Positions 361-63,789 of a DNA stretch of 64,000 bases are shown in pieces (position 1 is the stretch's first letter; every line of letters begins with the position of its first letter). A model generated the notes under the pieces. That model worked only from the letters and a program-made list of their open reading frames with translations, searched no databases and was not told where the DNA came from. The translations under genes were made by a program, and so were the position numbers. The DNA is from Deuterostichococcus epilithicus (taxonomy: Eukaryota; Chlorophyta; Trebouxiophyceae; Prasiolales; Stichococcaceae). The DNA is taken from positions 62,012 through 126,011 of the forward strand of contig JAVTLE010000004.1 in NCBI GenBank assembly GCA_033439295.1, read 5' to 3'.

Positions 361-3300
361 TCAAGGCTGAAAATTGGAACGAGCAAGAAGGCAAACAGGC
401 ATGCGGCCCCAACAGCCCCACACCTGGGAGCTGTGCTCCGGGATGGAGCCCGCCAGCGGGCTGCCCTCCTCGCAGAACACTGACGGGGCCCCCGCCACGT
501 CGGTGCTGGCGCCCGCGTCGCCCCGCAGCAGCACTGCGCTGGTGCCGCGCTTCAGCAGCAACTCGCCCCCGGGGGGCAACTCCACCAGCTCGCCGCCGCC
601 CAGCTGCAGGCGCAGCGCCGAGTACACCGCCTCCGCCTGGTGGTCGACATGCCTGCAAGCCCACAAAATAGCTTCTAGGAGTTAGGGTTTAGGGACAGCT
701 CAGCAGACAATCGACAGCATGTCATATTGAGGGTATGAGCTGCAGGCGCAGCACCAAAGTGCCCTGCACCGCCTCCACCCCGGTGCTCAACGCGCCTGCA
801 GGGTCTATTGGGAACACGGAGCGAGAATCAGCCAAGCATTGCGAGCATGGGATACGTGCTGGTTCGATAGGGTATGCCGCCGTTGCCCGGTGCTCGATGT
901 GCCTGCGGGCAGTAAGTGCAGGTTACAGACAGCGGTTCGATTGAACTTGCAAATGAGTGCAGTCCAGATATTGTGCATTCTAGCAGCTGCAGGCGCAGCG
1001 CTGATTATGCCGCCCCGCCTCATAATGGCAGCAAGATGACGAGCAGGTCGAGCAGACTGCCGCCAGAAGACTCGACACTGAGCATCAGTCGTGTAAAGTT
1101 GAGTTTGATCACGCCACGCATGCGGGACCTGAGCCGTCAAGTGGTGAGCATGACCCGTCCGCCTCCATCCGCAGCGAGGACCCTGGCGTGGGCGATGCGA
1201 GCTAAACGCATGCAGGAGCCGTTATATTCACGAGTCGGCGGCGGCGGCTCAGGTGGCGCTGCAGGCGTGCGGCGCCAGTAGGCGCACAGCCGTGTCTGAG
1301 TAGCAGAGACGAGCGGGATCTGTGCGTGAACACGTCTAGGTCTTCACCTCTTAGCGGCCGCGGCGCGGGTGGCGTTGCATGCGGGCGGCGCCGGCAGACG
1401 CACAGTGTCGTCGTTGCTGGCCTCTGCCAGCAGCGCCGCCAGCGAGCGGCCGCCCTCTGTCGCGGAGCGGCCCGGCCGCCGCCGCGCCTGCAGCTGTGAG
1501 TCCGATCGTTGCAGTTGCAGACATGTGTGCAGAGACGTGCAGTAATGTTGTGGGCAGGAATGTGTGCGGGAGGCCGAGGTTATGGAAGAGATGGCATGTA
1601 TTGCATGCAGCAGGGCGTGGAGGGGCCTGCGAAATGGCACTCAACGCTGCGTCCGCAGACCCACGCAGAGATGCCTGCAGCGTGCTTGCGCAGGTGCAGC
1701 AGGCCCACAAGCTGCACTGAAAAAGTTGAGGCAGCCAGCTCCAAGGCCATGCGATGACGTGCATCCAGGCAGCCCCACGCACCTGCTGCGCGTCGCTGGA
1801 GCCGCGGCCCTGGTCGGCGCCTGCGCCGCCGGCGTCGCCGGATCCGGTATCGAACAGCGAGCGCAGCCGCCGCTCCGCGAGACTTTGCCGCCGCCCATCG
1901 CCACCGGCCGCGCGTCGCTCCTGCATTGCACAAACACCCTAAATCGCTTGAGAGCAGGCACTGTGGTACCCAGCTTTTGTTACCGAGAGATGGTGTGCAC
2001 ATGTGTTCTTTCTGCACATGCGGAGCAGGAGGAAGTGGCAGTCCAGTGCGGACGCTCTTCTAGGGGCGGCAGGCACCGGCGGCAACACTGAATCAGGGGC
2101 CAAGAGGAGCATTTTCAGCGAGCAGGTTCGCTGACAGTGCTCAAGCGAAGGCTTCGGACAAGGTTTCCGCCTGGTGTCCGCCACAGCCTTGCCGGCTCGT
2201 GACAAGAGCAAGACATGGGGGCCCGGCAGCTGAGTGGCGCTTTGCCGCGAGCGGCATCAAAGGCCATGGCACGCACACCTCGGGGACACTGAATGGTGGT
2301 GAACTGACAGCACAGCACAGCACAGCACAGCACAGCCCAGCACAGCCAGTTTCAGCAGAACACAGCAATCTCAAGTTGGCCCTGTCGCGAGACGTTGTGC
2401 TGCGGCGGCAACACATGCGCAGGGCGGTGCGCGGAATACTACAAGCAACGCGCACCCTGGCGCAGGAGGCGGCCCTGAGCAGGTCGCCAATGTGGGCCAG
2501 CAGCTGCGGGCGCAGACGCTCCGCCACGTACAGCGCCGCCAGCCGGAACATGTCCACCTGCAGTGCGAGCAGTGGAGCGGGTCACACGCCGGCGCCGCCA
2601 GGGCGGCAGAGACCGGGAAGACACTCAGAGTCGCACAGGCGCATGCGCTCTGCGACGTACAGCGCCCAGCGAGCGCGACATGGCTCTGGCGAAGAGATGA
2701 CCCAGTGGACGACGGCATGTGGGAGCGAACCTCCAGCTGCATGAAGACGGGGTCGCCCAGCGCGGCGCGGTCGCGGATGAGCCCGATGCCGGAGCTGGGC
2801 AGCTCAAACACTACAGGGCCTTTCCCCAGGGCGTTGCCTTCCGCGATGGCCACCGCGCGGCCCGCCAGGCTCTCGCCTGCGCGGCTCAGCACAGCCGCAT
2901 CAGCATACCAGCGCGCAAGGCAGATATATATCGTAGAGTCGGCAGGGTGACAAGTCTGCCCGGCAGCTGCAACGAGCGCAAAGCGCATAGCAGACCCGGA
3001 GATATGGACACCTTTGCCGCTTGTGAGCTGTGAGCAGCGCTGCTCGTCCACGCCTGCTGTACACACGCGCAAGGACAGGCAAAAGCAAGCATGGCATCGT
3101 GGGGCCGCACCGGTGAGTGCGGAGAACAGGCCGAACATGCCGCCGGTGCCCAGGAAGTAGGTCTGGCTGGTGCCCTGCCACACATCGTAGCGCACCCGCA
3201 CCAGTCCGCTGCACACGATGAAGATGCCCTCCTCCTGTGGCCACAATCATTGCATGAACGTCAGGAGCTGCAGAGGGGGGAAAGGCAGCACGCGTACCAG

Positions 3301-6300
3301 GCCGCTGAAAGGAATGCCTCGCCCTCGTGTGGGCCACGGAAAAGCAAGGGTGCCACACAGCTGCTGTGGCAACACGCTCTGCCAGAGGACGGGCCTGGTT
3401 GCTGGCGGAGCGCAGTTCCAGTTGCATGCCACAGCATGAACGAATCTACATGGGGAGTGCTCGAAAGGGAAGGTTTCGAGGCTGCTTCGGGACTTGTTTT
3501 TCGGGGTCAGGCGCACCGGCGCGGACTCGTGGATCTGGCGGCCGGAGCGGTACATGAGCAGCCGCCCGCGCGCCAGCACCTGCTCCAGCACCTTGGCAGG
3601 CACCTGGCGGCGCGCAGCAGAAACATCAGGATCGGCCAGGCAAGACATCCTCGTGGGCGGCACCCATGGGCTGCAGCCGTCGCGTTGCTATGGCAGAGCG
3701 GTCACCTGCGCGGTGCTGCGTGCACCAACAGGCGACCTGCGGCCTGGAGCCCCTTGTGAAGGACAGGCGTGACTGCAGCACACTGCACAGCGCCTGCGGC
3801 TGGTGAGGTGGTCGCACCCCCACGGCGGGCAGTGCTGCGCACCTGGCGCATGATGGGCAGGGAGCGCAGGACGTCAATAACGAGGGGCGCCCGCCAGGTG
3901 GGTCCCCGGTGGGCCAGCACCCGGATGCGGGTGTCAATGGGCTCCGCCATGAGCCCCGCCTCCTGGCCCGTGACCATGCCGCTGTGTGCCATGCGGTCCA
4001 CGAACACCAGCTGCTGCCGCAGCACCGCCATTGCCGCCCTGGCGTTGTGAACAGAGGTTTTAGGGTATCAGTCTTAGTGTCCAGGTCGCTGTGCGCCATG
4101 CGGGCCACGAACACCAGCTGCTGGCGCAGCACCGCCATGACCGCCCTGAGGTGAGATGGAATAGAAAGGGTATGATGATCAGGATGAGGCAGTACGAACC
4201 CCGCCCTCAGCAGCTGCTGCCACAGCACCGCCATCGCCGCCCTGTCATTGTGGGTAAGGAGCGTGTGTCAGTGCAATGGGCACGGGGGCGAGTGTGAGAT
4301 GCCTGTCAGTCCGTCACCAGCCTCGAGCATGCAATGCAGTCGACAGCCGCCAGCCGCCGCCGCAGCACCACCGTCAGTCGTTGCCCTGAGATGGAACGAA
4401 AAGGTTGTGGATCAGTATGCGGCAGCACGAAACCTACAAACCGTCCCATTCTCAATTGCGCAGCGCGGCCCGACAGACACACGCAGCCACCGTGGCCGCC
4501 CTGGCGCGAGACAAAGATGCAAGGCGCCAGAGGAGACGCGGGTTCCAACATGTCACTGCATCCACAGACCCCCACACACGCCACCGGCAGCCCATGTCGC
4601 CTGTCACATGCCAGGCTCAACATCAGAACCACCACCAAGGGAGTTGTGCTGCCTGCCAAAGCCTGCTGGAGGGGCATCGTCACGGAGGTCTTAGTCGTGT
4701 GCCCGACAGCCACTCACACAGCGCTGCCCCACCCGCAGAAAATCGAAATGCCATGCTGCAGCGTCTGCCTCTCGAGTGCTTGGGTTCAGCGGTAACACGG
4801 TCCTTTGGTTTCAGTCGGCGCACCGGTAAGACTGGATGGCACGGAAGCGCTCGGGCGCCTCGATCTCGCGGTCGATGATGAACTTCCAGACCCGAGCCGA
4901 CTCCGCCTCCACCTCCTCGATGAGCACGTCCGACGCCTCGTGTTCCCACAGCCAGTGCACCTGATTTGACCGGTATAATTTACCTTGAATTCATTAAGGC
5001 GAACCTGCAGCAAGTGAATGCGCACGAGCATGTACCCCATGGCCACTCGCAGCTGAGGGTCCACAACGACAGGCAGGTGTACTGTGCATCTGCATACCAG
5101 TTTGTGCGACACCAGACTTGCCTGCGGCGAGTGCGTCAGCGCGAGCAGGTACTCCATGGCCACCTCGCAGCTGAGCAGCAGCTGCTTGGACAGCAGGCGC
5201 TGGCCCAGGTTGACGATGTGGTAGCCCGGCACGCCCAGGCCCCAGCGCAGTATAGCCCACTTGGAGCGCTTGAGCTTGATGCCGAAGCGGCGTAGCCGGA
5301 ACACCACGCGCACCTGCACCACAGGTGCCGAGAGCACGGGTCTGCTGTTGCATGTCGTTCAGGCGGCTTGGGAGCACAGGGTCCCAGACTCAGGAGCTGC
5401 AGCCGTGCGGCCGGCGACAGGCGTGTGGCACCGGCATGCAGCCAGGTGGTGTGGGGCGCTTGGGACGTGCCCAAGAAGAAGCAAGCCATGGAGACCGCCC
5501 CCGCAGCTGCGGGGCGGCCTCTGTTGCTGGCCGACTGCACCGCGTCTCAAGCCGTTCAGGGCATGCCGTGCCGTCAGCCTTTGCCTTCCGTTTTGCGCGA
5601 ATTCTGCCTCCACTCTTCACAACCAAGCTTTTCGTTTGGAGGTTCAAAGCCTGGTCTTGTGTCCAGGGCGCAGGCCATGTGGTGCGAGGGTTGCAGAGCT
5701 AATGCGGTTAGTATCCTGGAGCATATGGTTTTACGAGGAGAGACCACACGCCAAGAGTGCGCGCAGCCAGGCGCCGGTGTCCTCTGCTTCCAGCAAATTC
5801 CACAACATCAGCAACTCGCAGTCCCGAAGTGGATTTGTGTTGTGGTTCATTGACGCACCAGTATGGCCCGCAGCCAGCCGCCGGTGACCTCCTTTTCCAG
5901 CGACTCCCACAGCGCCAGCGGCGTGTCCGGGTCATCGATCTCCGTGTCGCAGCCGTGGTCCAATATCCGCAGCCCCTGCAGCGCGGCGCAGGGTCAAGGT
6001 TTGAGTTGGGGCTTGGATAGGATAATGCGTGGAATCTTGATTGTGCGATGACCAAGTTGTGAGTAGGGGTGTGACTTCGCCAGAGGTCTGCGGGATCCTG
6101 GTGCCGTTCTGCTGGTGGCGACACCGCAGGGGGGCCGCACCCTGGTGGAGAGCAGGCCCTCGATGGACTTGGTGTGGAAGTAGCGCTTCATGCCGGCGCA
6201 GATGCGGGCGCGCATGTCTGCGACCTCCTCCGCCGCAGGCTGCGGCCCCTGCGGGGCCAACCTTAGGGCTGATGATTCAGGGTAGTTCGAGCTTGAGAAT

Positions 6301-9300
6301 GACCAAGAGGCGCTTGAGGCCGGGACAATGCATTTCACTTGCAGTTCGGGTGGTCAGCGACTTCGTTCCTGTACCATCTCCTTTGCCGCATGCTCCGACC
6401 CATAGCTCGCAAAGGCCGCCAGAAGCGGAGATACATGCTACTGAACAGGTGGTGCAGCCAGCAACGAAGCTGACGGCGATAGCTGCCTTTCTGCACTGCG
6501 GGCCGTCTGGCATTTGGTGTGATGCCAGCACATGGATGCGGACACGTATGGCCGGTGCGGCTACCACTGGCACCGTTTCTTTTCAGAGCCACTGAAGTCC
6601 GTTGCTGTTCCTGCAGCAGGCCACGAGCACGGAGGCGTGACCCACCGTTTCTGTGGCCTCCTCCGCACTCGGCGTCCCGGAGCGGCCGCTGCCGCGGGTG
6701 AGGCTGTTGCCGGCCGACGCGGATGAAGACAGCACGTGCCGCCCCTTGGGCAGCACGCCAGTGTGCCAGGTGTGCTCCGAGCTCAGCGCCGCACTGCGTG
6801 GCAGGGACAGGGTGTCATGTGACGGGGGGATAGATCACTAGACAGAGTCATGTTGGGCGGCACCGCAGTGCGGATGCAGGGGCATGCACACGTGCGGTGT
6901 GGCGGCCTTGCTGACATTGCCTCCTGTCAGATGCGCATAAGGCGACCATGTCGAGAGGCGGGAGATGGCTGTGGATCAGTAGAGAGCTGCAACAGGGCCA
7001 CACCTTCCCTGTTTCCAACCGCTGGGGAGCTCGGTTGTCGGTGACATGATCATAATCCTCAGCAGAGTGCCTTCGGCTGCAGCTTGTCGACACCCAGTGG
7101 CAAGCAGCCAGATGGCGATGGGCTGCTTGCCGAGCAAAGCGCAAGGGAAACACTGCTTCGCACCCGCTCATCATGCGGCTGCCGACGCGGCCGACCGGAG
7201 AGTCCCCTTCCTCCGGAAGGCTGCCGCTGCTGCCCGCATGCTGCATGCCGCGCTTGCTGCTGCTGCTTCCGGCACGCATCGACCTGCACGAAGTTCACAG
7301 CGTGGTGTGTGCTGTCCTGTTAAGATACGATCGAGTGCTGACAGCAAAATGATACTACAGGATTCTGAATCAGGTCTATGAACCAGTGCGCATTTCAAGC
7401 GTGCGGTGCTGCGCTCTCGTCCTGCAACTTGCAGGCCGCAGCATTGGATGCTCGACGAGTCCCCTGTGGGAGGGCTGCGCAACGGGGGGCTGGACGCCGA
7501 TCCACGCGCAGGCCGCTTTCGGCGATCGCCGCTGCGGTGACATCCTCGCAGCACATGTGCCTATTAATTCCCACCGACGTCGTCCTGGATGGCTAGGAAT
7601 ATAGCACGCTGGTTGCGTGGTCCTGGCGGCACAAGACAGTAAACCATGCCGCAGTACCTGAAATTTGTTAGCAGCCTGGAGACCCCTGCGCATCTGATGG
7701 GTTATGACTTAGGGTTTTAGGATTGCACCTGTTGCGGCCTGCCATGCCGCTGGTCCATGTCAGCGAGTTGGCGTCGTCCGTGTCGCTTGTAGCCGCAGGC
7801 ATGGCGCCGGGGCCAAAAATGGAGGGCCCTGCGACGCCGAAGCTTTCCATGGCGCCGGTACCGCCGCCGCGGGCGATGTCATGTGTCGGCTTGGCGCGGA
7901 AGGCATGCCGCTGCGGGGGCGGTACACAGTGTTTGTGAGACCGGCAACGCAACTGTAACCGACCCACGTGTGGGAGCCATGGAAGGCATATCTAGGCTTA
8001 GGCGCCATGGCTTTTAGAGCCACGCATTGAGCAAGGCCAGTCAGCAGATGCACGCCGCCCCTGACTCGATGCTTGCAGGACCACAGCCGCCCAGGTCCAT
8101 TCTTGCGCAATACAGCACATGTGCAATTATCTACGCTACTCATTGCTGCTGCCTTCGCAACCAAGCACAACTGGCACCAGCGCAGACAAGGCATGGCCGC
8201 AGTCTGTACTGCACGCTCAGGCTGAGGAATTGACTGTTTATCTGCAGTGGTGGTCTGAGCGCCAGATTGCGGATGGAGCACCTGCGCACTGCAGATTGTG
8301 GTGGGCGAGAACCCATGGACCACAGTCGCAGCTCAGCTAGACAGCGCAGATCGCGTCTCTTTAAAGCGGTTGGGCGGCGCACCTGGGCCGGCGGCGAGAC
8401 AGCAAAGCTCTCTGGGGCGCCGACACCGCGGTGCACCAAGTGATCCACCGCTTCACGGTGCCTGCGCAACAACCCAGGCCAACCAGCATCACATCTCTGA
8501 GCACGAACCTCAGAACTGCTGCCCTGCGGGCGCACAGCGGTCTCTGGCACCAATGGCCAGCTGTTCGATTGTGCACGTGCCACTGTCGGCTGCGTCCAAG
8601 GTGAATGCCCGGGCGGTGCCTGGCGGCTGCAAACTCAGTGCTGCACGACCTGACACCACCTATACCCTCAGAAGCTCGACGCGCAACGAGCCACTGCCAG
8701 ATATCGGCGCAGTGTAACTCAGCAAACCGGCCGCCGGTCCCACACGCTGCTGTGTCAGCTGGTAACAGTATGCCAGTGAAACAGCAAGACTGCACGCTGA
8801 AAAGGCTGCTGACTTGGCCCCCAGGTCTGCTGAGAGTCCCCCACTGTCAGTGCCTGGTTGTGCACCTCCCATTCGGCTGCAGACGCCAACGAGCTAATGC
8901 GCCAAAGTGAACGCCGGGAAGCTTGTCTCCAGCACCTGGAGACGTCCTCGGGGCTGGGCTCCTGGCAGTCGGCCTCCACCTCCTCGTCACCGTATGATAT
9001 GTCGGCCCCCTGGCCCTTCTGGTGCTGCCGGCTGCCGCCTTCGGAGGACCCCGAAGCCGACTCGAAGTCCAGGACGCCGCTCCTGGGGTCCACGCCGGAC
9101 GGCTGGCCGGCGGCGGCGGTGCCGCGGGGCCTCGGCCGCGGGCTGCCGCCGGCGCGAGGACTGGCGCCATCGGCGCCGCCATCCTTGCCTGTGAGCAGGC
9201 AGGGGGGCGGGGAGTTGGCGGCTGCAGGGTCCTCGGATGGAAGAGTGCAGGAGCATCATGCGGTGCTGGGATGCGCCTGAACATCTACGGCGTCCTGCAA

Positions 9301-12300
9301 CGACAGGTTGCAACCTGACCTTGCGACGGGAGATCGCCATTGCGTGCGGCCTGGTGCAGCTGCAACCGTCAACCAGCGGGAGCAAATGCACACCTCGGGG
9401 CGAGGCGCCGCCGGCGCCGGCGTCGCCGCTGCCGGCGCCGCCGCCGCCGCGAAAGAGGCCCTTGACCGACGGACGCGCCGTGGCGCTCTTGACACGCTCC
9501 AGCGACGTCGTCGCGCCGGACAGCAGGCGCCCTGCCAGCCGCCCCAGCGAGCTGGTGCTGGCCTCGTTCTCGGAGTTCCCCTCCAGCTCGTCTGGGCCTG
9601 TCGACAGGGTGGCTGCACGTCGGCGCAAGATGGGCAGTCACGTCAGGCTGCTGCACAAGCGTATGGCCATCAATTGCCGAGCATGGCTGCTGCCGCGGGC
9701 ACTGTGCGTCAGGGACCCGACCGCCTTTCGGAGGCGGAGGTCCCGAGCTGCCTTCTCCGCCTGATTTGCTTGATAATCATTGCGCGGGAAAGAGTTTCCC
9801 TGAATGCGGGAGTCGAGCGCAATGAAGGCTCCAGCGCGCCTGCCAGCGACGCGACGCTGCCGAGCCGCGAGCGCGGGTGCGAGCCCCAGTCCTCCACTGC
9901 AAAGCCGCTGCCGCCGCTGCCGCCGCCACCACGCGGCGACGCGGCCGCTTCCCCCGCAGCTGGCGGCGGTGCCTCCGCAGCCGCAATCTCTGTGTCGCCG
10001 CCGTGCTGGCTGGCGTCGGGGGGTGCCTTCAGACCAGCGGGTTCGCCGCCCTGAGGACGGCCGGAAGGTTCGCCGCTGGCATCCGTATGCCGCCCGTCGG
10101 ACTGGCCACCGTCCTCGCCGTCTGGCAGTTGCGACAGGTGCGCATACGCCGCGTGCAGCCGTCGGTGCGGCGAGGGCTCCGTCGGGTGTGCTGAATCATT
10201 TGAGGCGGCGACCCCGTGCAATGCCGCTGTTGCCGTCGTCCTGGCGGCCAGGCCGGCGGGCGGCTGCGGCAGCACAGCGTCAAGCGCCGACTGCTGCGCA
10301 TGCCAGGCGCCATCACCACCAGCGGCCGTCCAGGCCGCATCCGTCGACAGTAGGGCCGGACTGCCATCGCCGCCGACTTGAGCAGCCGCCGCCGCCTCCG
10401 CCAGCGTAGTAAAGGGGTTCGGCACCTCCGCCGCTACCGGCGGCGGCCCCGCGCCGGCCGCTGCTGACGCGCCCTGCGCGCCACCCACACTGTCCGCGGC
10501 GCCGCTACCGCCAGGGCCCGGGCTACCAAAGCGCTGCCGCAGACTGCCGCTGACGCCAGAACGTCGCTCGATCTGCTCCCGCAGCTGCGCCACCGGCTGC
10601 TGCCGCGGAGACACGACCGCCGGGCCGTCATCTTCTTCAACAGGAGCCGCCGCAGCTGTGTGGCCTTCCGTGCGCGGCACGGTGTCGCCGCGGCTCCGCA
10701 GCGGCTGCCGCCCAGTGAGCGCGTCCCCTGGGGCACGGGCGGCGTCCGCCGGCGCCTGCCGCCACGAAGGCGTGGCCGCAGCCGCATCCGCCGCTAGACC
10801 AGAGTCCTGCTGCTCTTCCGACGCCTCGGGGCCACCCGCCGCCGCGTCGCGCCTCTCAGCGTCGGCAATCTCGGGATCCTCTGTGGGGAACAGGGACGCA
10901 AGGGAGCGGCGCTGCGGCGGCGCCCTGGCGGGTTCCGCGGCCTCGCCGCCGCCGAACAGGTCGGCCAGCGAGCGGCGCGCCTCTGCCGGCGCCCGCTTGA
11001 TGGTCGCCTGCGGGCAGGGGTGGACACTGATCTGCTGAATGGCTTTGCTGATGCACGTATTGCGATGCTGCCGGCAAGACTCCTGACGGTCAAGTACATG
11101 AAGTACCCATCCATGTGCGCCGGCAGGACTCGCTGATGCAATGGAGACTCAACCCTACATGCTAAGCAGGCAGACAGGCGCTCGCATCCCTACTGCAAGC
11201 GCCTGGATACAAGCAACCGATCCGGAGCAGCAACTCAGCATTGCAGGCAGTTGCAGCTCGCCTGCGAATCGAGCAGCTGTTGTGACGCCGTCCGTGGCGG
11301 CAGCCCGCCGCCGCCCTCGCTGGTGTCTCGGCCGCCCTGAGGCAAGTCTGGCACCGAGGACACCCGCCCCAGCCATGGCGCGTTCTGGAGGCACACAGGC
11401 AGTCTGAAAAAGTCCCGGCAATGCCATGGACGCACTGCTGAGTTGGCAGGCTTGCATTCCGATCACCGAGGAGACCGTTGCGAGGCAGCAGTGCAGCCTG
11501 CATGCTGCATGCTGCAGTTCGCACTTTGCACTTTGCACTTAGGCCTCCAGTCTGTGCACAGGCATCCAGAAGGCAGGATACTTCGTGCGTCAAACAGACC
11601 TTGCACAACGAGACTTGCTTGGACATGCAAAATGGAGCGGCGCCGACAGGTGTGTGGCGTTGCACTAACCTGCTGCAGCAGCGGAGCAATCGTTGAGGTT
11701 GAAGACTCGGAGTCGCCAGCGACTGAAGACACCCGCGACAGGCCATGGCCCATGGAGCGGGCGGCGGGCCGCGGCGGCGCCGGTGACGGCGTGAAGACGC
11801 TGCCCCTCGACATGGCATGCGCCGCCGACGACCTGCAAGCGGCCGAAGAGGCAGTGAATCTCGAACGGCAGGCCTAGCGCTGGGAGGCAACCCGACTAAC
11901 AGCTTATGTGCAGCGAGGGAGAGGTGCCCGCATGCCGCGGCCCGGCGAAGCCCATGCCAACACCACAGCGCACTGTGGGAATCGTGCGGCAAGCAAGCTA
12001 CATTGCATCTCATGCTCTGCTGGCTACGAATGGTGTGCAGTGCTCTCAAGAAGGGGCAGACCAGAGCTGCACTGTCTTCTGTACGAGTTCCCTAACTCAC
12101 TTGTAAGCCGACGAGCGCGGCAAAGTCTGCCATTTTCCACAGCCAAGGGCATGCGATGGAGGGGATACCCGTTGCAAGGGGACATGCATTGTTCGTACTG
12201 ACTTGCCTTCGCTGCAGGAAGCCGGAGCTCTTGCGTCCCGGCGCCTCGTGTGTCGGCAGCCCCTCCGCACCCGACGGCCGCCGCGACGCGGCGGCGACGG

Positions 12301-15300
12301 CAGCCTTGGCGGGGTGCCGCGACAGGAAGGGCAGCTCCCCATCCAGCGACTCTTCGTTGATCTCCACCATGCTGATCTCCCGGCGGCCCGAATCCGAGTC
12401 GTCAGACGGCTGCGCGGGGCACTCAAAGCCTGAACCCCTAAACCCGAAATCGCTTTGATACAGCATTTCAGAAGAGGGTGCCGCAGGCAGCCACGGAGCA
12501 TGGCACCAGTGGCTCATTGGGTGCATGGAATCGCTGGACGGGTCTGCCGGCTCCAGGATCCTGTGCGTCAAACCAGCTACTTGCAGCGCACTCCAATAGA
12601 GGCCCAGGACCCCTGCCCGCCACCGGTGCGCGCCCTTGCTGCCACGGCGCCGCGGCGGCGGCGGCGTTGATGCTATGTGCCATGTCACGAGGCCAGAGGG
12701 AAGGGCCTGAAACACTCGGCAAGGAGCGGCTCAGGCGGACAGCTGCGTGCAGGGTCACCGACAGGAGGTCGGAATCCCACCTCAGCGGCGCTGCCGTCGG
12801 CTCCGCGCGCCTCCTCCTTCCACGCCGCCAGCGGGTCCGAGTCTTCGGTTGTTGTCGTGTCCTCCGGCGACGAGCCCTCCACGTCCTTACCAGCCCTGCG
12901 GCGCGGGCGGCGGAAGTGCAAGGGGTTTAGGCTTGGCGATGTGGAAGCCAGACTGGGTTAAGTTGCCGCGCGCCAGGATGGCTGCACAGTGCATGCGCAG
13001 GGTCCACAACCGGAGACAGCTGTCCTCTGCGAGCTGCTGCGACCTGCAGAGATTGGCATCCCGCATCATGCCTTTGTGGGCTGGATCTAGACTGCACCCG
13101 GACATGATCGGCAGCAGCCTAGCAGGCCCCGGACCACACCAGCTCCGTCAGCAACAGGTGTGAGCCTGCACGGCACCTTCGTCCGGACTGAGGCCTCGCA
13201 ATAATGCACAGGCCGGCAGAGGGGACGTGACGAGCAAGCTGCCTGTGCAGCAGATCTTGCATGCGCAGGACGCTGCTGCTGAACAGCGACGCACCCGCCG
13301 TCGCCGACGCCGCCGCGCTCGAGGTCTGCATCATCGCCCTCTGTGCCGGCCTTCTCAGACGCGCGGCTGTGGCGGTCCAGGTGCTCCTGATGCATCCAGG
13401 ACCACTGTAAACGATCAGACACGCGTCCAGGAATTTGCCGCGGCCGCGGGCACCTTCGATGTCCACCAGGCCCGGAAACTCGGGCAGCCTCCTGTGCAAG
13501 GCTGGCCCGTCCAGAGGCGTGCGCCAGTCGCCGAGCAGTACACACAGCGATGGTGCTGCGGCTGTGCTGCGTAGCCGAAGCCTGCTGACAGCGCATGCGC
13601 CAGGGGCACCTGGTAAGAGGTGCGCCGGTTGCCGCGCCCGCCGCGGCGCCGCCAGCAGCAGCACAGCGCCGCCAGCCACCCGGGCACCAGGCTGGGCTTC
13701 TCCAGCGGCCGGCAGTCCGGCGGGTTGACGAAGGCCTGCAGCCTGGGGCCCATATCCACGTACTGCTTGACCGCGTCCCAGTCCACGCCTGCGGGGTTAC
13801 GTGTCAGATATTGGTACAGGACATGCAATGGCAGTAAAGCAAATCGCGCACATGGCAGCCAGGGCTTGCCGGGATGCGCAAACGAGCCAAATGGGCCACA
13901 GTGCGACTTTGGAGACTCAGCATGTGAACATTCGGTACAGAAACAAACCCAGCCCACAGCACCGCATCGCCCCGTTTGCACCAGCTCGTCCATGCCTTGT
14001 GCCGCCATGTGCCCAACAGACACGTGAAGTAGAACCATCCCTGAAACAAGTATTAAGACCCACCCCGCAGCATCTCGTCGTCATCATCTCGAAGCTCGTC
14101 CACCGCTGCGTCGGTGTGCCGCAGCAGCAGCCGCAGCGCCTTGCGCCGCATCTTCTGGTGCTGCGGCGGCACCGCGTCCAACCTGCACGATGGGACGGGT
14201 GGCTACTTGATGACGTAGACACAATCTATGCGTGCATGCAGTGCATGAGATCGAAAGCCTGATGTTTTGCATTGCCCTTGCCTGGCGACAACAGCAGCAT
14301 GCGGCCTCAGTTCAGGGCTCTGCAAAAGGGCATGGCTCGACATCGCTGCGTAGAGGAGCATCATGACCAATGCTGAACCAAAGAGGGTGGGTCTCGAACT
14401 GGCGGAAGACGGAAACAGGAAGGAGGCAGGAGGCGCACTTGGTCCAGCGCAGCACGCGCGGCAGCATGGGCGCATTGACCAGCAGCGTCAGAAGCACGAA
14501 GACCGCCGTGAAGAGCACGATCTCAGACTGCACCCTCTGCGGCAGGGAAGCAGACTGACGCCGTCAGTCAAGGGGCGACCGACGGCCATGCAGTGTGCAG
14601 TAAGGAGCGGCAGCAGCACAAACACCATGCTCAACAGCATAGCCTCCAATTGCACCCTCTGCGCCAAAGACACAGGACCCAGGCGTCCATTTGAACACAC
14701 ACTGTTCGGATGGAGGGTCCATGACAGCGGTTCCAACAGGAGCACACAACAGATAGAAGTGAGCGACGCACCAGCACGGTGCTGTCCACTGACGCGGGCA
14801 CCTCCGTGACGACCGCCTGCGCCAGGATGAGGGACACGCTGCCGCGCAGCCCCGCGGTGGCGCAGAACAGGCAGTCGCGCCAGGACAGCGGCGAGCGCCC
14901 CGCCCAGAACAGCGGCCTGCGCGGCGGCGGCTTGCGATTGTACACCAGACTTGGCATGTTCCGTTTGTCACGACGAGTCCGCTGCCCTGTCTCGGGGAGC
15001 CGCGCGCAGCCCCAGGTGCACTGGCGCAGCAAGCTTGTTGTGGGTGGAATTCAGTGAAACAGAGGTCCTGCCTGCCACACGAGACGCTGACAGCGAAGGA
15101 GCCAGTGCAAGCGACGCGGAGTCTCCACCTGAAACCGGCGATGATGAGGAAGCGCAGCACGTTGAGCATGAGCCACACCAGTGGCGCTCGCCACAGGCTG
15201 CCGAATAAATCCCGCCGGTCCAAGCCGCTGAGGCTGTCCGCTGACCTGCAGTTTGGGCCAGCACACCAGCGGTCAGCGACAGCAGCCATGCCGCAATGGT

Positions 15301-32806: not shown

Positions 32807-32838
<32 letters not shown>

Positions 32839-43300: not shown

Positions 43301-46300
43301 TGGGAGCGCGTCACCGGCATCACCCGGTGCGCGACTGGAGATGTGCCGACGCCACTGCGCCTTTCGAGCATTCAACGCTGTCGGCCGACTGTTCATCGTC
43401 GGACCTCTGCGGCTCCCCGCAGCGCCTGCCAGGCCAGTCCCTGAGGCGGTGCCGTGTCCTGAGCCCCATTGGCACCCTCCTGCTCGCGTCAGCTAGACCC
43501 TTACGGATCCCGAAGCAGAGCACTTTGGCGTCCCAAGTCGGCGCCGACAGGCTGGCGGTGCTGCACGTGCTGCTCGCACATGCAGCCTCGTCGACCGGTG
43601 GCCCTGGCTCAGGGCCGAAGTGCGCCTGATGAGGTTCTCGGATGCCATGGTGCTCCGCTCCTGCCGCGGCGGTGCTGGTCTCTGCCGTCCCGTTCATGCA
43701 CCGTAGTACTGCGCACCGAGTCAATTGCTGCACAGGCACTACGCTGGCAGCCTGGCGGCGGTGCATGTGCTGCCCACGTTTATATCCTTCGCTGCATGCT
43801 TCGGACGGACAACAGTGCTTGTCAATCTCGAGCACTGGACCCTCTGAGTCTCGCAGGTACAGCGCCAACAGCTTGGCAGCGCTGCACGTGCTGCCCGCGT
43901 TCACCGACTTCGCGGCCTTTGCGTCGGCCATGGAGGAGGCACTGCTGGGCACCGCGGCGGAGCTGGGCTCCGACATGGAGGCGCTGCAGTGAGAGCTCTG
44001 TTCCCCCTCCGTTCAACAGCCGGGTGTAGCAGCTGATGTGGCCACTTGGCTGCCGTAGGAGACCATCGGCTGCGTTTTGCATCCGCATCGGGCGCTCTGC
44101 GCTGCTCATATGGCATGCTGCGCAGGTCCCTGTGCATCGAGCAGCCGTGGCCAATGTTGCGGCTGCGGCAGCCGACGTCCGCCAGCCGGTTGGGCACCGT
44201 TACACTCAATGCACAGCAATAAGCGGCCACACAGTGATGGAACTGGACTGGAAAGTGATGGATGCATGGATGTGCGGCTTGCCTCAAGCATTGCTCCGGG
44301 TTTGTGCAGACTTCCAGAGGCGCCGGAGCGGGCGCCGCAGCCGCCGGTCAGCCGCCTGCTGCTGGGCGACGCCTCGACAGCCGCCACAGGGGGCCCTACC
44401 CTGGACGTCATTGCCGAGGTGGGAGCATTTCTGCATGCCGAAACGACTCGAAGGACTTGCAGGCGTGCTCGGAACCACCGTGCATGAGGGCATGCCTCGC
44501 TCAACACTGCACCTCGGTCAGCGGGCTTCCAGGTGCTTCCCGCGCGGGCAGCCTGACCGGTGGACTCGATGGAGCAGTCTTGGCGCAAGAGCCGGACGGC
44601 CGGCTTGATTGCACGCTCGTCACATCGCCATGCATGGAGGCATTGCTTTGCCAGAGAAGGTGGTATGCAAACAGCAATTGACGAGTTGCACAGATATAAG
44701 ACAGGAGCCGGCCGGGCTGGTCGCGAGGCGACGTCATCGTGCGGTGCAAGTTTTCTCCATTCAGGCATCGCCCCGCCCGCATCAGGCACACTGACCGACA
44801 ACCTCTTCACTGTCGCACGTATCTCACAAGAAATTTCATGCGACAGGACGGGGAGCCGGGCGGGCTGGAGGCGGCGGCGGGCGCCTACCTGTCAGAGGAG
44901 GAGCTGCCGGAGGCCATTCCCGCAGCGGCAGACGTCAGGTGGGTTCCATTCCCTTCCATTGAACTTCGGGTAGACCGCCGGTGTGTTCCACAGAGGGTCG
45001 CTGCCTAGGCTGATTCTGCAGTGCGGGGCGTGCCTGGGTATCGTTTCAGGGAGACCCACCTTGGTGGGTATCTGCAGATGTGGACAGCCTCCCGGAGCTG
45101 TGTCGCCATGGCCAGTCGTCGCAACATGCTCGCTCGCCAGACCTCTGGCGGCGGCGTGTCAGAAGAAACTGCCTGATGACTCGGCTTCGGTACCCCAGCA
45201 TGACCCGCAGCCACTGGTCGCGCCGTCATTGCCGGCAGCAGCCTGGAAGCTGCAGCCAAGCGCCCAGCCGCACACACAAAAACTCAAAATATGCCCTGGA
45301 CCCCTGCCATAGATGTAGGCCGAGGCCCGCGACTCAGCGCGCAATGTGACGGTGCCAGTGTATGCTGTGCTGGCCTAGAAATATTGCTCAAACCCTCAAC
45401 CGGACTGCACACCTGCAGGTTGACGCGCAGCTGCAGCTGCCCTCAATGTGGGTCTGGCAATTTGACGAGCAATGTTCTCGATTGCTGCAAGTCGAAACCT
45501 TGAGTTTCAGCAGTGAATTTCCCGCAGGTTGGCGCGCGACATGGCGACGCCGACGTACGCGGTGCTGGCTATTGACGTCCCTCGAACATAAACTTGACAC
45601 CTTGAATTTCGAAACTCGAAGCACGTTATTGGCGCAGGTCGGCACACTCGGTAACGGCACCAGCGTCCGCAGTGCTGGCATGCGACCGCCATCTGCTGAG
45701 AATTGTCCAACCTGAAAATGCTTACGAGTACTCAGATGTGAGAATCTTCCGCATCTTGGCCTACGGTGTGGCGCGCAGCCGCACGTGTGCCACAGGCAAC
45801 GTTGGACTTGCAACAATCGCTTGTGCAGGTCGGCACGCGACGTGGCGGCGCCGGCGTACGCGGTGCTGGCGCGGTCCGCCTTCGCCACCCTGGAGCGACT
45901 TGCGGGGCAGGACCCCAAGCACGCTGACAGGCGCGCATTCGGTACAGGAAACAGATTCCAGAATAACCTCCGGACAGGTCTGTCCCAATTTGTTCTTGGC
46001 AAGCGGCTCTTGATGTCTCTGTGCACTCGGATAATCGACCAGTGCAGCAGCTGCTCACGGCTGTCCCGGCTGCTGACATGCAGTCATCACAAAATCCAAA
46101 CAGCCAGCTACACACTGTCACACTGTCACGCTGTCAGGCCGCACGGCAGAGCGACCAAAGTAAGCGCAATTTCATCATCACCAAATGTCTTTGAAAACAT
46201 GTCTTTAATCACTGATCTTGCTGCTCAAGCGTGCTGTTGTGGCACGCGTAAGCGGCAGGTTGTGGATGTGTCGCCTGCTATGCTCATGAATGGCCTGTGC

Positions 46301-54996: not shown

Positions 54997-57900
54997 TCAG
55001 GCGGCCAGCCGCGCGGCGACGATGCCGGCAAACACCGCGGCGCCAAACCACTTGTTGGACTGGAACTTGGCGAGGCAGTCGGGACGCGAGTCCAGGTCGA
55101 CGGTGCCAATTTGCCAGGCCAGCTGCGCCGCCGCCGCGCCGAGGCCTATGTAGAAGGGCGCCCCACACTGCACGGTCCACCCTGCAGCCAGCAAGGTCGT
55201 GATTTGGCGCTGTGTTTGCACTGTTTTCAGCCTCGTACAGCACGGTAGATGCGTTCAATGCCGACTGTTGCTGTGTTTCACACGCAGGAAAGTACAGGAG
55301 GTGAGCGAAGAAGGAGCTTTCTTGCCATGGACTGGTATGGCAAGAGGCTGTATCATCGTGATGAAGTGAACATGCAACAGACTTTCAAACAGCAAGTTGT
55401 GCCCGCTGCGCAGCTGCAGGGTTGAAGCATGAGCCTCAGGAAACAGCCGCCGGATTGAGCCAGCGGTTCTGACAGCCACCTGCCACGCCCAGCAGCCCGA
55501 TGGTGCCCACGCCGAAGCCAGTAAGCCAGGGCTTGGTGGCGGCGCCAAACAGCAGCGCCGTCGACTTGACGCCCGCGTGCACATCATCCGCCTTGTCCTG
55601 CGGACCGCAAACCAGGGCTCAGGGTGCCGAGCACTTGCGCACTGTCGCAGCACAGTTGGCATTGGCCCTGCAGTACCATGCATGGCCCCCTGCTTTCGTT
55701 ACCCAAACTGGTGTAGACCGACAGCTAGGACAGCTGAACAATATTTCGGAAGACAGACGCTCCCAAGGCGCTAGGTTGATGGTCTTGCTTCAGTCCTTTC
55801 TGTTGCATACGAGCAGCTCCTTGGCACTTGGCTACAGTACCATCTATGCGCACCACATCTGGCGACAATTTGTAGCCAAGTGTTCACAGGTGCTGGCCGC
55901 GTGCAGCAATCGGAGGGACCAATTGATGGATTCGGAATCATTGACAAACATCGAGGTGCTGCACCTGATGCGCATAAATGGTGTCGTAGACGAGCGTCCA
56001 ACAGACGCCGGCGGCGTACAGCGGCGCCACTGCTGCCCAGTCGCAGGCGCCGTGCACCGCCGCCCAGCCCAGCAGCGCGCCCCAGTTGAATGTAAGCCCC
56101 AGATAGGCCTGCGGCTGCAACGGCATCCACAGCGGACGGCTCAGAACAGCACCTGATATAATTTGTGATGTCTTGGGCTGCAGCCGCTATGCCGCCAGAC
56201 GCGCCTCAGTCGGGCAGAAGTTCCAGATACGCCTATGACTGCTGCGGTCAATGCAGCGGCAGGAGCATCAGCACAGGGGTGGATCAGATTGTCGGCAAGA
56301 GAAGTGCTGACAGCCCTGCGTTGCAGCCCTAGCCCTGCGGCACGCATCACTTGCAGGTCAGCCTAAGGCGTGCTTACAGCTGCGGTGCACTGGCAGCAGA
56401 CACGCCAACATGAGGGTGACCGAGACAGCTACCATACAATTAACGTGGCGAGAGTCATGTTTTGTATGCCTGCTGAGCAGCGCGCCCCAATTTGGGTCCG
56501 GCACCAGGGAGTGCACACGGATTGCAGTGGGTCTGGGGTAAACATCTGCATTCCAGGCAGGAGTCGGCTACACACAGGCTTCTGCTGCGCAGCGCGGTTC
56601 TGTGGTGCCGGATCGAGAGGCATCGGGTGGCAGACCTGGCCGCAGAGCAGCCCAGGAGGTGCGACGTTTCATGCTTCCAACTTCCTGAAGGCCAGAGTGA
56701 TTACGATACCATGCGCGCCTGCCGAGGCGGCCGCCGTGGACGCAAGCACCACCGCTGTCAGAGCTGCGAATGAGCCGATCACGCAGCAGCACAGACGGTC
56801 GTCTCACCCAGTGGGTGAGGCGCTTCATGAGGGGGTAGGTGAAGACGAGGCCCAAAGCCGATGCGCCCAGCACGATGCTGTACGCGTTGAGCTGCAGCAG
56901 GATGCCCAGCCCCAGCAGCAGCTGCGCGCCCAGCAGGCCTGCGCACGGCAGAATTTTAGACTTTGTTGCCGGAAGCTGTGCTGAAGCGACTGCCACGCAA
57001 GTCCGCGCAACGTTTCGAGGCTCTTGGCTGCAGCAGGGTGGCCAGCCGGGCGGCCTGCGCAGCGACGACTTGGCCCGTAAACACAGCAGAGATACTGCGT
57101 GCTGGATTGTTTGGGTCTGAGAACAAAGGGGTCTAAAGACGGGGACCGGGCATGGGGTGCACGATGCTGAAGGCGGCCATCTGCAGCCAAGCACTGAGCC
57201 TCGCCGGCAGCCGTGCGCTCAGCAGGCCTGCGCTTCGCATGACCTGCGGGAGGTCTGACACCCACAGGGGCTGTAGTCGGATCCGAGAATGACGCACAAC
57301 TGTGGCGACTCAGAAACAGCAGGACTGCCCCTGCAGCGGCAGTCTTGGTGACGGCGCCCTTCGCCAGCGCCGTCCGCCGACGCATCCCGACGTGCGCGCC
57401 ACCTCCCCTCCCAGAAGTAGGATTTGACTGCCCAGCAGCGCAGAAACCAAGCGGGCACGAAGCACCAGGAGGCGCCCTCACCCACGGCGGCGGTCTTGGT
57501 GACGGCGCCGCTCGCCAGCGGCCGCCCCGCGGTGCGGGCGACCTTTCTGTCCAGGTCGGCGTCCCACAGGTCGTTAACGGTGCAGCCCGCGCCACGCAGC
57601 AGCAGCGCCCCCGTGCCGAACAGCGCCAGCAGGCGGAAGTCCGGGGCGGCGCCGGGCGGCGCCGCGAGCGCAATTGACCAGAAGCAGGGCCACGCCAGCA
57701 GCCAGGTGCCTGTGCGGGGTGGGGGCTCGCAACGCTGACCTGCAGGACTGCTGTGTCGATTCGAAATGGCTGGGCCTGCAGCGTGGGCCGAGCTTATCCT
57801 CCAGCTCCCTGCAGAACCTCGGGCAGGATGTGCACGGCCATGTTAGCTAATGCGCATGCAGGCGTGCGGTAGCTGGTGCCCCGGCGCAAAGCAAGGCCAT

Positions 57901-59820: not shown

Positions 59821-62800
59821 ATGGGACGCACCTCCGGCGATGGTGGCGGCTGCGCGGCGGCGCCCGCACGATACTCCCTGCGCCGCCGGACGACCAGCAG
59901 CAGGTGGGCACCCGGAAAGTATATGCTCGATCAGCCCCCTTCCCGCTCGAAACATTGGGCGTCGCCGCACAGCGACTTCATGCAGCGGTGCCACCGCCAC
60001 GCAGCTTGCAAGCGCAGGGCAGACTCTGAATGCTGCGGCTGATGCGGCACTGGATTAAGCCTGAGGCATGACGTCGCTCGCGCTGTGCACTGGGTGTTGA
60101 GAGAACTCAACGAAGGGATGTGGTCGTTGGGCACGGCGCAGGCCGGGCGCCAGTGGCGGGCCGCGAAGCGAGGAGGTCGAGCTGGCAAAGCTGCTGTCAA
60201 TGGCTGGTGGCTGCCGCAACGTGGTCGTCTTCTCTGGCAGTGGCCTGTCGGCGCCTTCAGGTGGGCAGAGCTGGGCTCGCCCTTGACACCATCACTGGCT
60301 GGTGAGGCCAGCAGCAGCCGTCAGATCTGCCGGCTGCTGCAATGTGGTCGGCTTCGAAAGCAGCGGGCTATCAGTGCCATGAGTTGGGCGGAGCTCGGAA
60401 ACGCCTGGACTGTCATGCTGCGGCATGGTGGGCCAGAGTTGGCAGCCGTCCAGCTTCACCTGCTTGCACAGCATCGCGCCCTGCCAGAACTTGCCAGAGA
60501 CGTGGCAGCGAGCACGCCCGCCTGGGGTATACCATGGCATTGTGCTGATGCTGTGGAGCAAACGCCGCAGGAGACTCGGCCAGCGATCGAGACACATCTG
60601 TTGTACAGCAGGCGCTGCCATAACCAGTAGGGCAGACAGGCAGCCGGGGCAAGCGGGCAGCCTTCCCAGTTGCAGGCGCCCACCGCATGTGATGCCTCTC
60701 CTGCCGACTGGGCAACCGTGCCCGTCGCCGGGGCCGCTGTATCTGGGCACGTTTAGGGCGCAGCAGCAGGGATCTCGACCACACACTTCAGTCAGCTGCA
60801 TACGTGCAGTTTCAAGTTCCATCTGAGCGCATTCCTGGGAATGTCGCGCAGGCATGAGCACCTTCAGCACGAAGGGCGGGCTGTATGAGCGGGCAGCCCG
60901 CCGCTTCGGCCTGGCGGACGGCATGCGGCTGTTCAGCTACGCCTTCTTCGACAAGCAGCGGCTGGAGGCGCTGGTGAGCGGGACCGTTACGGTTCGTTGA
61001 TATGGAACAGGCATTGCCCGCGGAGGCCACAGCGTGTTGCTTTTGGGTCTCGCGCCGGAAACACGCGGCTGGAGGCTGTGGCTGCAGTGGGTTTGGGCTG
61101 GCCACTCCGCTCGAAAACTTTTGCGTCTGGAGCTCGCACGATGTGCCGGCCGCAGTGCGCTGGCTGGTACTTGCTTCACTGACAGCGAGATTGCGCGCCT
61201 GTTGTGCTGACGTTGCTAACCTGACATCATGCCATGTTATGCACCTGCTGCCATATGTGTCCCTTAACATTGCTCATGCGCGGCGCTGCCTGGCAGCCCG
61301 CATGCGTAAGCCGTACCATTCCTCTTCGCCTGTGAGCGCTAACCGTGTGTGCATGCATTCCTCGGCAGTACCGCCCATGTTGTGTGCACCATTTTGTCCG
61401 CCAGGCCTTCTTTGCGGACATCTACATGGAGGCGGTGGCGGCAGCGCCGGCGGCGGCGCACCGCGCGATTGCGGGCATGGCGGCGGCGGGCGTGCTGCGG
61501 CGCCACTACACGCTCAACATCGACGGTTTGGGCGAGGCGGTTGGCATGGACACCTGGCACCCCGACACCAACCCCGAGGGTGAGCAAAGTCAGAGTTTTC
61601 CAGAGTGGTGCAGCGCAGAATGATGTCTGGGGTCCTGCCTGGTGAGGCACCAGCGGCTCTCGGTGCGGCGAGCACTGCTGGCAGGCTGGCCTGCTCACTA
61701 CGGCTAGGCCCCCTGCTGAGACGATCTATGTTGGGCAGTTCCAATAGTATGGCTGTCTCCGGCTGCAAGTCGAGGCCCGTGTCGGACGAAATTCTGCTGC
61801 ACGTGGGGATGTGCCATGCAAGCCCCACCCGTGTCGACGCAGACGCCAGCTGCACTGTGTATCTCCACGGGCTGCACGCAATGCACGTTCTCGTGAACAT
61901 GTTGTTGAACCCTGGGGGGTGTCCTCCCTGCGCGAAGGCGTTGCCCGAGCACTGTGCTTCTGTCTTTCAGCAGGCGGAACATTGCCGTCAAGGTCTGCCT
62001 GCGGACCACAGCTGTTAACGAGCAGCGTTGCTCTGCCTTGTTGCAGGCATCGCGGCGGAGGTGTGTGGCAGTGAGCGCCAGGGCTGGCATGCCACGCCTG
62101 ATGCGCAGTCTGAAACACGACCAGTAGAGGTCCGGATTGCTTCGACAAGACAATCGCAAGTTTGGCGCCTGCGCGCAGGCACCACCGTGGAGATGCACGG
62201 CAGCGCGCGGCAGCTGGTGTGCCCTGCCTGCGGCACCATGGTCGCCTCATGGGGGCGTTGGCGCAGACTTCCTGTGTGGCTGTGGCCAGAAATCCACTTT
62301 CCCCTCCGCATACGCGCAGGCATCACCGCGGGGAGGTGCACCGTTCAGAGTGCGGCGGCCGGCGTGGGTTTCGTCCACAACCGTTCGCGGTCATCACACC
62401 CGTTTGTATGTGACCGCAAGCTTTGCGTTTTCACTGCAGGCATCACCGTGGAGATGCACGGCAGCGTGCGGCAGCTGGTGTGCCCCGCCTGCGGTACCGT
62501 CGTGGGCCTCACGCCGGCGGCAGCGCGCACCTTGAAGACGCGGAAGCCGCTGCGCTGCGCCGCGTGCGGCCATGCGCCCATCCGCACGAAGGTCATGCTG
62601 TACGACGACGCGGAAGGTGTGGCCTCCGCTAATCTCCCTTGGTCAGGCGAGGCTTGAATTGCTTGAAAGGCTTGAAAAAGGCGACAAACAAGTCTGGAGT
62701 GCGCGTGCAATATCGTCGTGCACAATGCAGCGCGCTGAGGGAGAAGGTGCCTCCCTCTGCCTTCACCGCGGCCGCCGTGCTTGGCCGCGTGCCTTATACG

Positions 62801-63789
62801 CAGAGATCTCACACGCACGAGCCAAACAGTCCCTTCTCTTGTCAACTCAGCGCTGCTGGAGTCTTGCACTGTAGATAGAGCATATCATGCCATCTTCTCT
62901 GTGGCAGCGGGACGCCAATGCCGCTGTTGTGATGCAGCTGCAGCACTGCCCAGAGTCCACACAGCGCCAAGGCCTGAACCCAGAGTCAGGGCTCAGTCCG
63001 GCTTAAGTGTAGACCCTGCCAGGGCCTCCCGCAAACCCCCTACTGCAGTCTTCGATCTCAGGCCAGAGGCGGCGCACGAGCGTGAGGAGGATGAGGACAT
63101 GGCAGCAGCGGATTATTTGACATTGCTGATGTGAAGAGACATGTGCCGCAGAATCAGTCGTCATGCCAGAGTCGTTGTGCGAGCGCATAGAGGAAGACAT
63201 GGCAGTGGCGGTTCTGCAATGTCTCACTGATCAAATCGTACTCACTCATTGGCGTTTCACTTTGTGATTGCCCTGTGCTGCAGACTCGGTCATCACGCCG
63301 GAAACGGTGTATGAGCGCATGGAAGAAGACATGGCGGCGGCAGACTTGGTGCTGTGGGTCGGCATCTCCTTCCAGCAGTCTGCTTCCACGCAGTACTTTC
63401 GGAACGTGCGCCGCTTCTGATACCTTCTGGGTTCTGTGCACCTCGTTCTGCGCCCGTTGAGAGGGCATGATCTGTACATTTTAAGCATCTTGAAGCGAGT
63501 CACTGAAGCGCAGGTTCGTGGCATGGTCGCTGAGGAAGGCCGCCCGGGCTCTCTGGCTGGCCCCTTGAAACCTGTGCCAACCCTCGGCATGCGATTGAAA
63601 TCCGCTTCGATCCTTTGCTCTCAGGTCCGCAACATGATCGCCGAGGCAGGCCGTCTGGGCGCTGTGAAACAGGCGCTGGTCAACCCTTCCGACGAGACAC
63701 TGTGGAACGTGCTGTCAGCCTGCTCCAATACCGGTGCACTTTGCAGGCTCCCCCGCATCTGTCTCCCACTAATGCCAGGGGCTGCGTAA
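59821..63789 (+). CDS. Divergent sirtuin (Sir2-like NAD+-dependent deacylase)
   Basis: DHS-fold NAD+-binding protein. Exons in phase: 59821-59903, 60142-60260, 60852-60973, 61405-61579, 62440-62616, 63284-63405, 63625-63789 (TAA), about 320 aa. RNVVVFSGSGLSAPSG stands in place of the usual 'GAGIS' loop. HYTLNIDGLGEAVGMDTWHP replaces 'TQNID'. MHGSVRQLVCPACG carries the catalytic His and first Cys pair, and LRCAACGH the second zinc pair. LVLWVGISFQQSAST and ALVNPSDETLW match the NAD-binding strands. The usual 'PDFR' tetrad reads STFS, so activity may differ (inference). A GTGCAC after 63,733 could be a donor, so the gene might continue past the window. Exon starts at 62,440, 63,284 and 63,625 have intronic copies upstream. 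Confidence 0.85.
60310..60378 (+). repeat. Copy of the sirtuin exon 2 end
   Basis: GGCTGCTGCAATGTGGTCGG...GGGCTATCAGTGCC echoes the exon end at 60,207-60,260 (GGCTGCCGCAACGTGGTCGT...GGCCTGTCGGCGCC). It lies on the donor side, about 115 bp downstream. Confidence 0.8.
62047..62616 (+). repeat. Four in-frame copies of the sirtuin zinc/catalytic exon start
   Basis: Each copy follows a GCAG acceptor. They begin at 62,047, 62,179, 62,320 and 62,440 (the exon), with spacings of 132, 141 and 120 bp, all multiples of three. One open frame runs through all four (62,028-62,657). The 62,179 copy reads TTVEMHGSARQLVCPACGTM, keeping the catalytic His and CxxC pair; the other two are decayed. Confidence 0.85.
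63075..63210 (+). repeat. Two copies of the sirtuin exon 6 start
   Basis: 63,075-63,125 (GAGCGTGAGGAGGATGAGGA) and 63,162-63,210 (GAGTCGTTGTGCGAGCGCAT, GAGGAAGACATGGCAGTGGC) echo the exon 6 segment at 63,290-63,345 (GTGTATGAGCGCATGGAAGA, AGACATGGCGGCGGCAGAC). Both are on the acceptor side. Confidence 0.75.
63505..63560 (+). repeat. Copy of the sirtuin exon 7 start
   Basis: GCAGGTTCGTGGCATGGTCG...GAGGAAGGCCG echoes the exon 7 start at 63,621-63,675 (TCAGGTCCGCAACATGATCG...GAGGCAGGCCG), about 112 bp upstream. It keeps an AG acceptor in the same position. Confidence 0.8.

Follow-up and report, generated by a model that had tools for sequence, protein, structure and literature searches.

Decayed tandem copies of exon ends in the introns of the green alga Deuterostichococcus epilithicus: probable traces of an old episode of ~125-bp duplication

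The 64-kb stretch of the Deuterostichococcus epilithicus genome analyzed here (hereinafter, the window; positions 62012-126011 of contig C4, from a 46.8-Mb genome in 21 contigs) contains genes for an SOS1-type exchanger, AATF, DHAD, SEC3, TFB4, a COQ2-type UbiA protein and a sirtuin, and many introns of these genes carry, next to an exon, decayed copies of the end of that same exon. To place these copies in a broader context, we surveyed the window together with ten-kb pieces of 16 contigs, one from each, and 23 three-kb loci that had originally been fetched for a different question, that is, 40 pieces and 293 kb in total, or 0.6% of this one genome. Exons and introns were assigned by a self-trained hidden Markov gene finder, not from transcripts; the finder converged on the donor CAG^GTG(A/C)G and the acceptor YGCAG^G (^ marks the splice junction), with a median exon of 128 and a median intron of 256 nucleotides. 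Across all gene models, ~8% of the predicted donors have GC instead of GT. The DHAD gene (27472-33418, minus strand), with 11 predicted exons, serves as a check on these predictions: the model product aligns with the chloroplastic DHAD 5ym0 over 574 residues with short gaps only, so that its splice sites appear trustworthy. For the models of the SOS1-type exchanger, sirtuin, TFB4, COQ2-type UbiA protein, SEC3 and AATF, the backing evidence consists of Pfam domains.

A reading of the window made from the sequence alone had named all seven of these genes as carriers of the copies, and most of them indeed are. At an alignment score of at least 18, exon-intron pairs were found in the genes for the SOS1-type exchanger (6), DHAD (7), SEC3 (16), the COQ2-type protein (1) and the sirtuin (5). 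AATF is a borderline case, with none above the threshold and one weak donor-side pair slightly under it (22577-22835, plus strand, offset 228), and for TFB4 the gapped caller returned no pair, strong or weak. In the SOS1-type gene, on the minus strand, acceptor-side copies of exon 424-652 lie in the upstream intron at offsets of 136 and 383 (601-1020), and further acceptor-side copies accompany exon 2456-2557 (2509-2682, offset 129) and exon 14439-14536 (14481-14675, offset 122). Donor-side copies in the same gene derive from exon 1348-1487 (1238-1409, offset 116), exon 5113-5313 (5004-5175, offset 117) and exon 5859-5975 (5759-5919, offset 107). The start of exon 3843-4038 has given rise to an array of copies at offsets of 107, 203 and ~343 (3970-4434), which bears a later 203-bp repeat and one member of which was predicted as an exon (4200-4241).

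In the DHAD gene, exon 28041-28244 has both a donor-side copy (27900-28084, offset 125) and an acceptor-side copy (28182-28547, offset 291), and exon 29420-29523 is flanked by copies on both sides (29308-29750), including a 118-bp head-to-tail array at 29433-29739. Donor-side copies belong to exon 30786-31035 (30532-30841, offsets 116 and 132), exon 31330-31534 (31180-31420, offset 184) and exon 32212-32384 (32100-32299, offset ~120). SEC3, on the plus strand, is the richest gene, with pairs at 35186-35491, 35570-35711, 36260-36434, 37800-38072 and 38162-38501; at 40440-40640, 41271-41475, 42979-43271 and 43531-43951; and at 45334-45883, 46473-46700, 46722-47038, 47629-48066, 48101-48346 and 48483-48606. 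The COQ2-type gene (minus strand) has pairs at offsets of 289 and 146 (56870-57544). The sirtuin gene (plus strand) contains a donor-side head-to-tail copy of exon 60142-60260 (60189-60468, offset 123), one exon start present in three copies (62155-62526, offsets 118, 143 and 261), and acceptor-side copies of exon 63284-63405 (63036-63344, offsets 132 and 235). In places, the gene finder was evidently misled by such copies: the small predicted sirtuin exons 62179-62216 and 62320-62335 are themselves copies, and a 123-bp array in SEC3 (47751-48066) was called an exon.

Repeats were detected by self-BLAST of the whole window and of overlapping tiles, by an ungapped lag scan, and by a gapped caller with the score threshold given above; the latter was also applied to four block-shuffled windows as a control. 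The gapped caller yielded 50 pairs in the window, compared to a mean of 0.75 in the shuffled windows, and 104 pairs in the other surveyed pieces. The repeats are predominantly direct and local: the tiled self-BLAST produced 6 inverted local repeats as opposed to 42 direct ones, each of the latter with an offset within 86-393 bp, the whole-window self-BLAST detected no direct repeats at offsets of 400-2000 bp, and in the lag scan the repeats of the window cluster at 100-160 bp. The pattern extends beyond the window, given that 11 of the 16 ten-kb pieces carry a direct repeat at an offset of 75-400 bp, although in one of these pieces (L015) both repeats lie outside genes. A copy is present in 31 of the 101 introns of the window, as opposed to 42 of the 378 introns in the remaining pieces (p = 7e-6, Fisher test), so that the window is richer in copies than the genome at large; the detected copies account for 9.6% of the intron bases in the window and 5.2% of those in the whole survey. 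The density of exon copies is ~3 times higher in the window, which lies 62-126 kb from the contig end, than in pieces L004-L043.

The placement of the repeats relative to exons was assessed by shifting the annotation along the sequence (300 shifts for the class of the pair, 200 shifts for the crossing of exon edges). Of the 127 pairs with offsets of 75-400 bp in the 293 kb, exon-intron pairs make up 82, exon-exon and intron-intron pairs 21 each, and pairs outside genes 3, whereas the means under shifting are 44.9 (+/- 5.6, maximum 60), 10.2, 54.2 and 12.0, respectively. In 53 of the 82 exon-intron pairs, the alignment extends past the edge of the exon on the side of the copy, compared to a mean of 14 and a maximum of 25 under shifting; thus, these alignments span the exon-intron boundary, with one copy in the exon and the other in the intron, as defines a tandem duplication across a splice junction. 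The presence of copies of exon ends inside introns can therefore be considered real, both against shuffled sequence and against shifted annotation. The proposal that such copies lengthen introns is supported: introns with a copy have a median length of 509, versus 247 for those without, but part of this difference is length bias, because longer introns hold copies more often by chance.

The copies have a narrow range of spacings. Offsets of 90-160 bp account for 52 of 84 exon-intron pairs, whereas a flat size distribution, as seen by the same detector, would put 31% there (p = 3e-9). The excess also holds when younger ages are simulated. Another 12 pairs form a second peak at 250-300 bp, as expected for two units. 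The copies can be arranged head to tail: the alignment covers at least 0.9 of the offset in 16 of the 81 pairs at 75-175 bp, the remainder being too decayed to tell. In 10 of these 16 pairs, exon and intron sequence are mixed, as in DHAD 29433-29739 and sirtuin 60189-60468. These arrays support local tandem duplication as the origin of the copies, as the initial reading had suggested.

The intronic copies decay as non-coding sequence does. The exon part of 48 of 79 exon-intron pairs contains a frame-breaking gap, and the differences at codon positions 1, 2 and 3 amount to 0.166, 0.177 and 0.258, respectively, as expected if the copy is unconstrained and the exon contributes synonymous substitutions. 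Together, the frame breaks and the codon-position rates rule out functional or coding copies. Tandem duplication of whole exons, including both of their splice sites and with the frame kept, was likewise rejected, given the same frame breaks and an exon-side extent with a median of ~0.48 of the offset.

Most of the duplications appear to be old. An identity of at least 0.92 is reached by none of 47 exon-intron pairs, although steady activity predicts 25%; this test dropped 9 of 56 entries for poor boundary registration or extent, and 2 of these 9 reach that identity. Among all classes of pairs at 60-400 bp, five have an identity of at least 0.9 over at least 30 columns, one of these being a coding repeat, and none has such identity over at least 60 columns except for the coding repeat in L019. 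Some younger events exist, such as the later 203-bp repeat in the SOS1-type array at 3970-4434, and a few pairs look younger, namely those at DHAD 29308-29501 (0.93 over 55 columns), in L005 at distance 127 (0.95 over 41) and in L016 at distance 120 (1.00 over 31). A tandem duplication that creates an intron is expected to leave similar sequences at its donor and acceptor; however, of 471 introns, 4 have a 24-nt donor/acceptor match of at least 16 (versus a mean of 3.65 in the controls) and none has one of at least 17 (control 1.05), so that intron birth by tandem duplication was rejected. An insertion-made intron, in which the copy would end at the far splice site, was rejected as well, the remaining distance having a 5th percentile of 66 nt and a median of 310.

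We believe that the best explanation of these observations, and one that we hold with some confidence, is an old episode of tandem duplication of ~125-bp segments, probably via break repair, which is visible mainly at conserved exons. Under this scenario, segments of ~90-160 bp would have been duplicated in tandem at very many sites in genes, mostly during an old episode. If such a segment spanned a splice junction, the mRNA would stay unchanged as long as the copy adjoining the exon body was the one used in splicing, and the other copy would become part of the intron and then decay neutrally. The exons, being under selection, would retain the reference sequence by which such events can be recognized, whereas duplications confined to introns would erode in either copy and in most cases become unrecognizable. 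Given that decay affects both members of an intron-intron pair but just the intronic member of an exon-intron pair, the simulated detection rates under old ages are 0.165 for exon-intron and 0.010 for intron-intron pairs, and no targeting of splice sites is necessary to account for the predominance of exon ends, which is probably an effect of visibility. Being tandem and unaccompanied by a mobile element, the duplications point to break repair; the most likely source would be fill-in followed by end-joining at breaks whose protruding ends are long, or at two offset nicks. In Arabidopsis, paired nicks reportedly give rise to small tandem duplications. The unit size of ~125 bp is not accounted for by this explanation; one speculation is that nicks were spaced at nucleosome scale. 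As a bold extrapolation, which rests on the assumed ages, the 52 visible pairs can be corrected for the simulated detection rate (0.165) and for placement; this yields ~670 events and ~83 kb of the ~160 kb of introns, so that one ancient class of ~125-bp duplications could be the source of roughly half the intron DNA in the survey.

Several observations weigh against this explanation, some of which concern the behavior of homology at the splice site. The copies had been described as including the splice site, and this is correct insofar as, when the alignment reaches the boundary, 17 of 28 copies retain AG and 10 of 12 retain GT or GC, proportions close to those expected from neutral decay at such divergence; by contrast, intron sequence further in is rarely recognizable. 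Among 39 boundary-reaching pairs, the exon-side identity is 0.79 next to the boundary and falls slowly to 0.41 at 50 nt. The intron-side identity amounts to 0.74 for the five bases of the splice site (versus 0.78 among real sites), to 0.38 past 5 nt, and to background past 15 nt. Clear intron-side homology is seen in 5 of 53 pairs, although simulations with all or younger ages expect 61-70%. The age estimates derive from forward simulation, with the age range and the mix of indels chosen by hand. When old events are simulated (0.22-0.45 substitutions per site per lineage, with some long indels), intron-side homology is expected in 16% of the pairs, compared to the observed 5 of 47, and the same simulation reproduces the identity quantiles of 0.75-0.89 and the median crossing of 5 nt; we therefore dropped the sharp edge as a refutation of tandem duplication. 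The fit, however, depends on the chosen ages and indels, and slightly younger ages (0.18-0.4) are rejected (p = 0.003). Furthermore, at 90-160 bp, the ratio of intron-intron to exon-intron pairs is 13 : 52, above the 0.07 predicted by old random placement, which implies that the event ages are mixed. The break-repair step would itself be an inference, and the copies are too diverged for microhomology at the junctions to be readable. The sharp edge reflects either the old age of the events or a genuine stop of copying at the splice site, and we prefer the former. The latter possibility, which we regard as unlikely, is that a splice site together with ~58 nt of exon was put ~60 nt into the intron, with no intron flank, by an RNA-linked or splice-site-directed process. 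Such a process would directly explain the asymmetric homology and the retained AG and GT/GC dinucleotides, as well as several pairs of 0.88-0.89 identity whose intron flanks show no similarity, but old tandem duplications analyzed with the same detector give the same edge, the mixed head-to-tail arrays contain intron along with exon, and no mechanism of this kind is known to us.

The narrow size range invites an explanation through selection on splicing, whereby short duplications of the junction would be mis-spliced and purged, and long ones would be rare anyway. Only 2 of the 84 exon-intron pairs have offsets below 90 bp, versus 15% expected in the flat-size simulation and about one-third of the intron-intron pairs; nevertheless, donor-side pairs, which need little intron, share the lower limit (20 pairs, in a set chosen at 80-175 bp), and detection does not explain the drop above 160 bp, so that we give this account only a small chance. 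A steady process that continues to make and unmake splice sites, as the sequence-only reading had envisaged, seems to us slightly less credible still: the few younger-looking pairs would be compatible with it, but the scarcity of near-identical copies and the lack of an intron-birth signature do not support continual creation of splice sites. The arrangement of direct repeats in pairs around a spacer of ~60 nt could also suggest an introner or another mobile element with long target-site duplications. However, comparison of 54 of the 56 spacers with the 293 kb, as opposed to the whole genome, revealed no shared family, and spacer matches beyond the copies at the same locus are weak or consist of the telomere motif only; in agreement with the initial assessment that no introner or transposon family is involved, we consider such an element very improbable. 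Finally, we find it hardly conceivable that the pattern is an artefact of assembly or of gene models. Some copies were called exons by the gene finder, single Ns are present, and collapsed repeats could hide young copies, but decayed copies with 75-90% identity, many of them with indels, are not a product of assembly, the splicing of DHAD is confirmed by the protein alignment, and the repeat excess is independent of the gene models.

Some additional repeats were observed in the surveyed sequences. Telomere-type (TTTAGGG)n arrays are present at contig ends, and snippets of about two TTTAGGG units, in either orientation, occur 22 times in 224 kb, compared to 0-8 times for 19 permuted units. Twenty of the 22 snippets are in introns, with examples at window positions 681, 4055, 12433, 12923, 21595, 41575 and 49940, at 4669 in L007 and at 2451 in L019; genome-wide, there are 24 isolated exact telomere 14-mers. 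The snippets are possibly scars of telomerase action at breaks. A role as filler at the duplication junctions was rejected given that 2 of 20 lie between copies, versus 1.1 expected, which is no enrichment. In addition, the window contains an array of 8 copies of the pentanucleotide ACAGC (2307-2346), and L014 contains three diverged direct repeats (5522-9482) with a period of ~1.4-1.5 kb and ~68-81% identity.

Several previously described systems resemble the present one in part. In intron gain by tandem genomic duplication, as outlined in the accessible parts of the respective reports, a duplicated AGGT makes a new intron with the length of the unit (PMC3443670, PMC2891723); exon DNA is locally duplicated in tandem and one copy is spliced out, as in this alga, but here existing introns were lengthened, and donors and acceptors show no similarity in the 471 introns. 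The closest case in geometry is the potato RdRp gene, where, according to the sections available, a duplicated segment crosses an intron-exon boundary and the splice signals are inherited from the parent (PMC4974935). That is, however, a single recent case in which an intron was gained. In the alga, old events are numerous and spread over many genes, their unit size is narrow, and no new intron was seen. With regard to break repair, the portions at hand describe small tandem duplications produced in mouse cells by end joining (cNHEJ, classical non-homologous end joining) of breaks with protruding ends (PMC5730883), and tandem duplications produced in mouse and human cells by CST-guided fill-in of 3' overhangs by Pol alpha-primase (PMC8355091); in rice, natural insertions of 10-1000 bp are often tandem duplications (cited in PMC7407515). 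The duplications in this alga resemble these in being tens to hundreds of bp in size, free of a mobile element and, in a minority of the pairs, head to tail; neither a narrow 90-160 bp class, nor an old episode, nor genome-scale growth of introns was found reported in the accessible parts of those sources. Similarly to introners, the duplications would have changed the intron content genome-wide, but, unlike introners, which have a sequence common to many introns, each copy resembles its own exon only. A search of the literature, mostly outside subscription papers, found no report of such a pattern in an alga.

Gain of intron length without transposons is poorly documented. On the practical side, decayed copies of exon ends with splice motifs mislead gene prediction, several of them having been called exons here. 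Conversely, constrained exons act as fossil references that allow old duplications inside introns to be dated and sized. If the narrow size range and the dearth of young copies hold genome-wide, episodic size-specific duplication would have shaped the intron length in this lineage.

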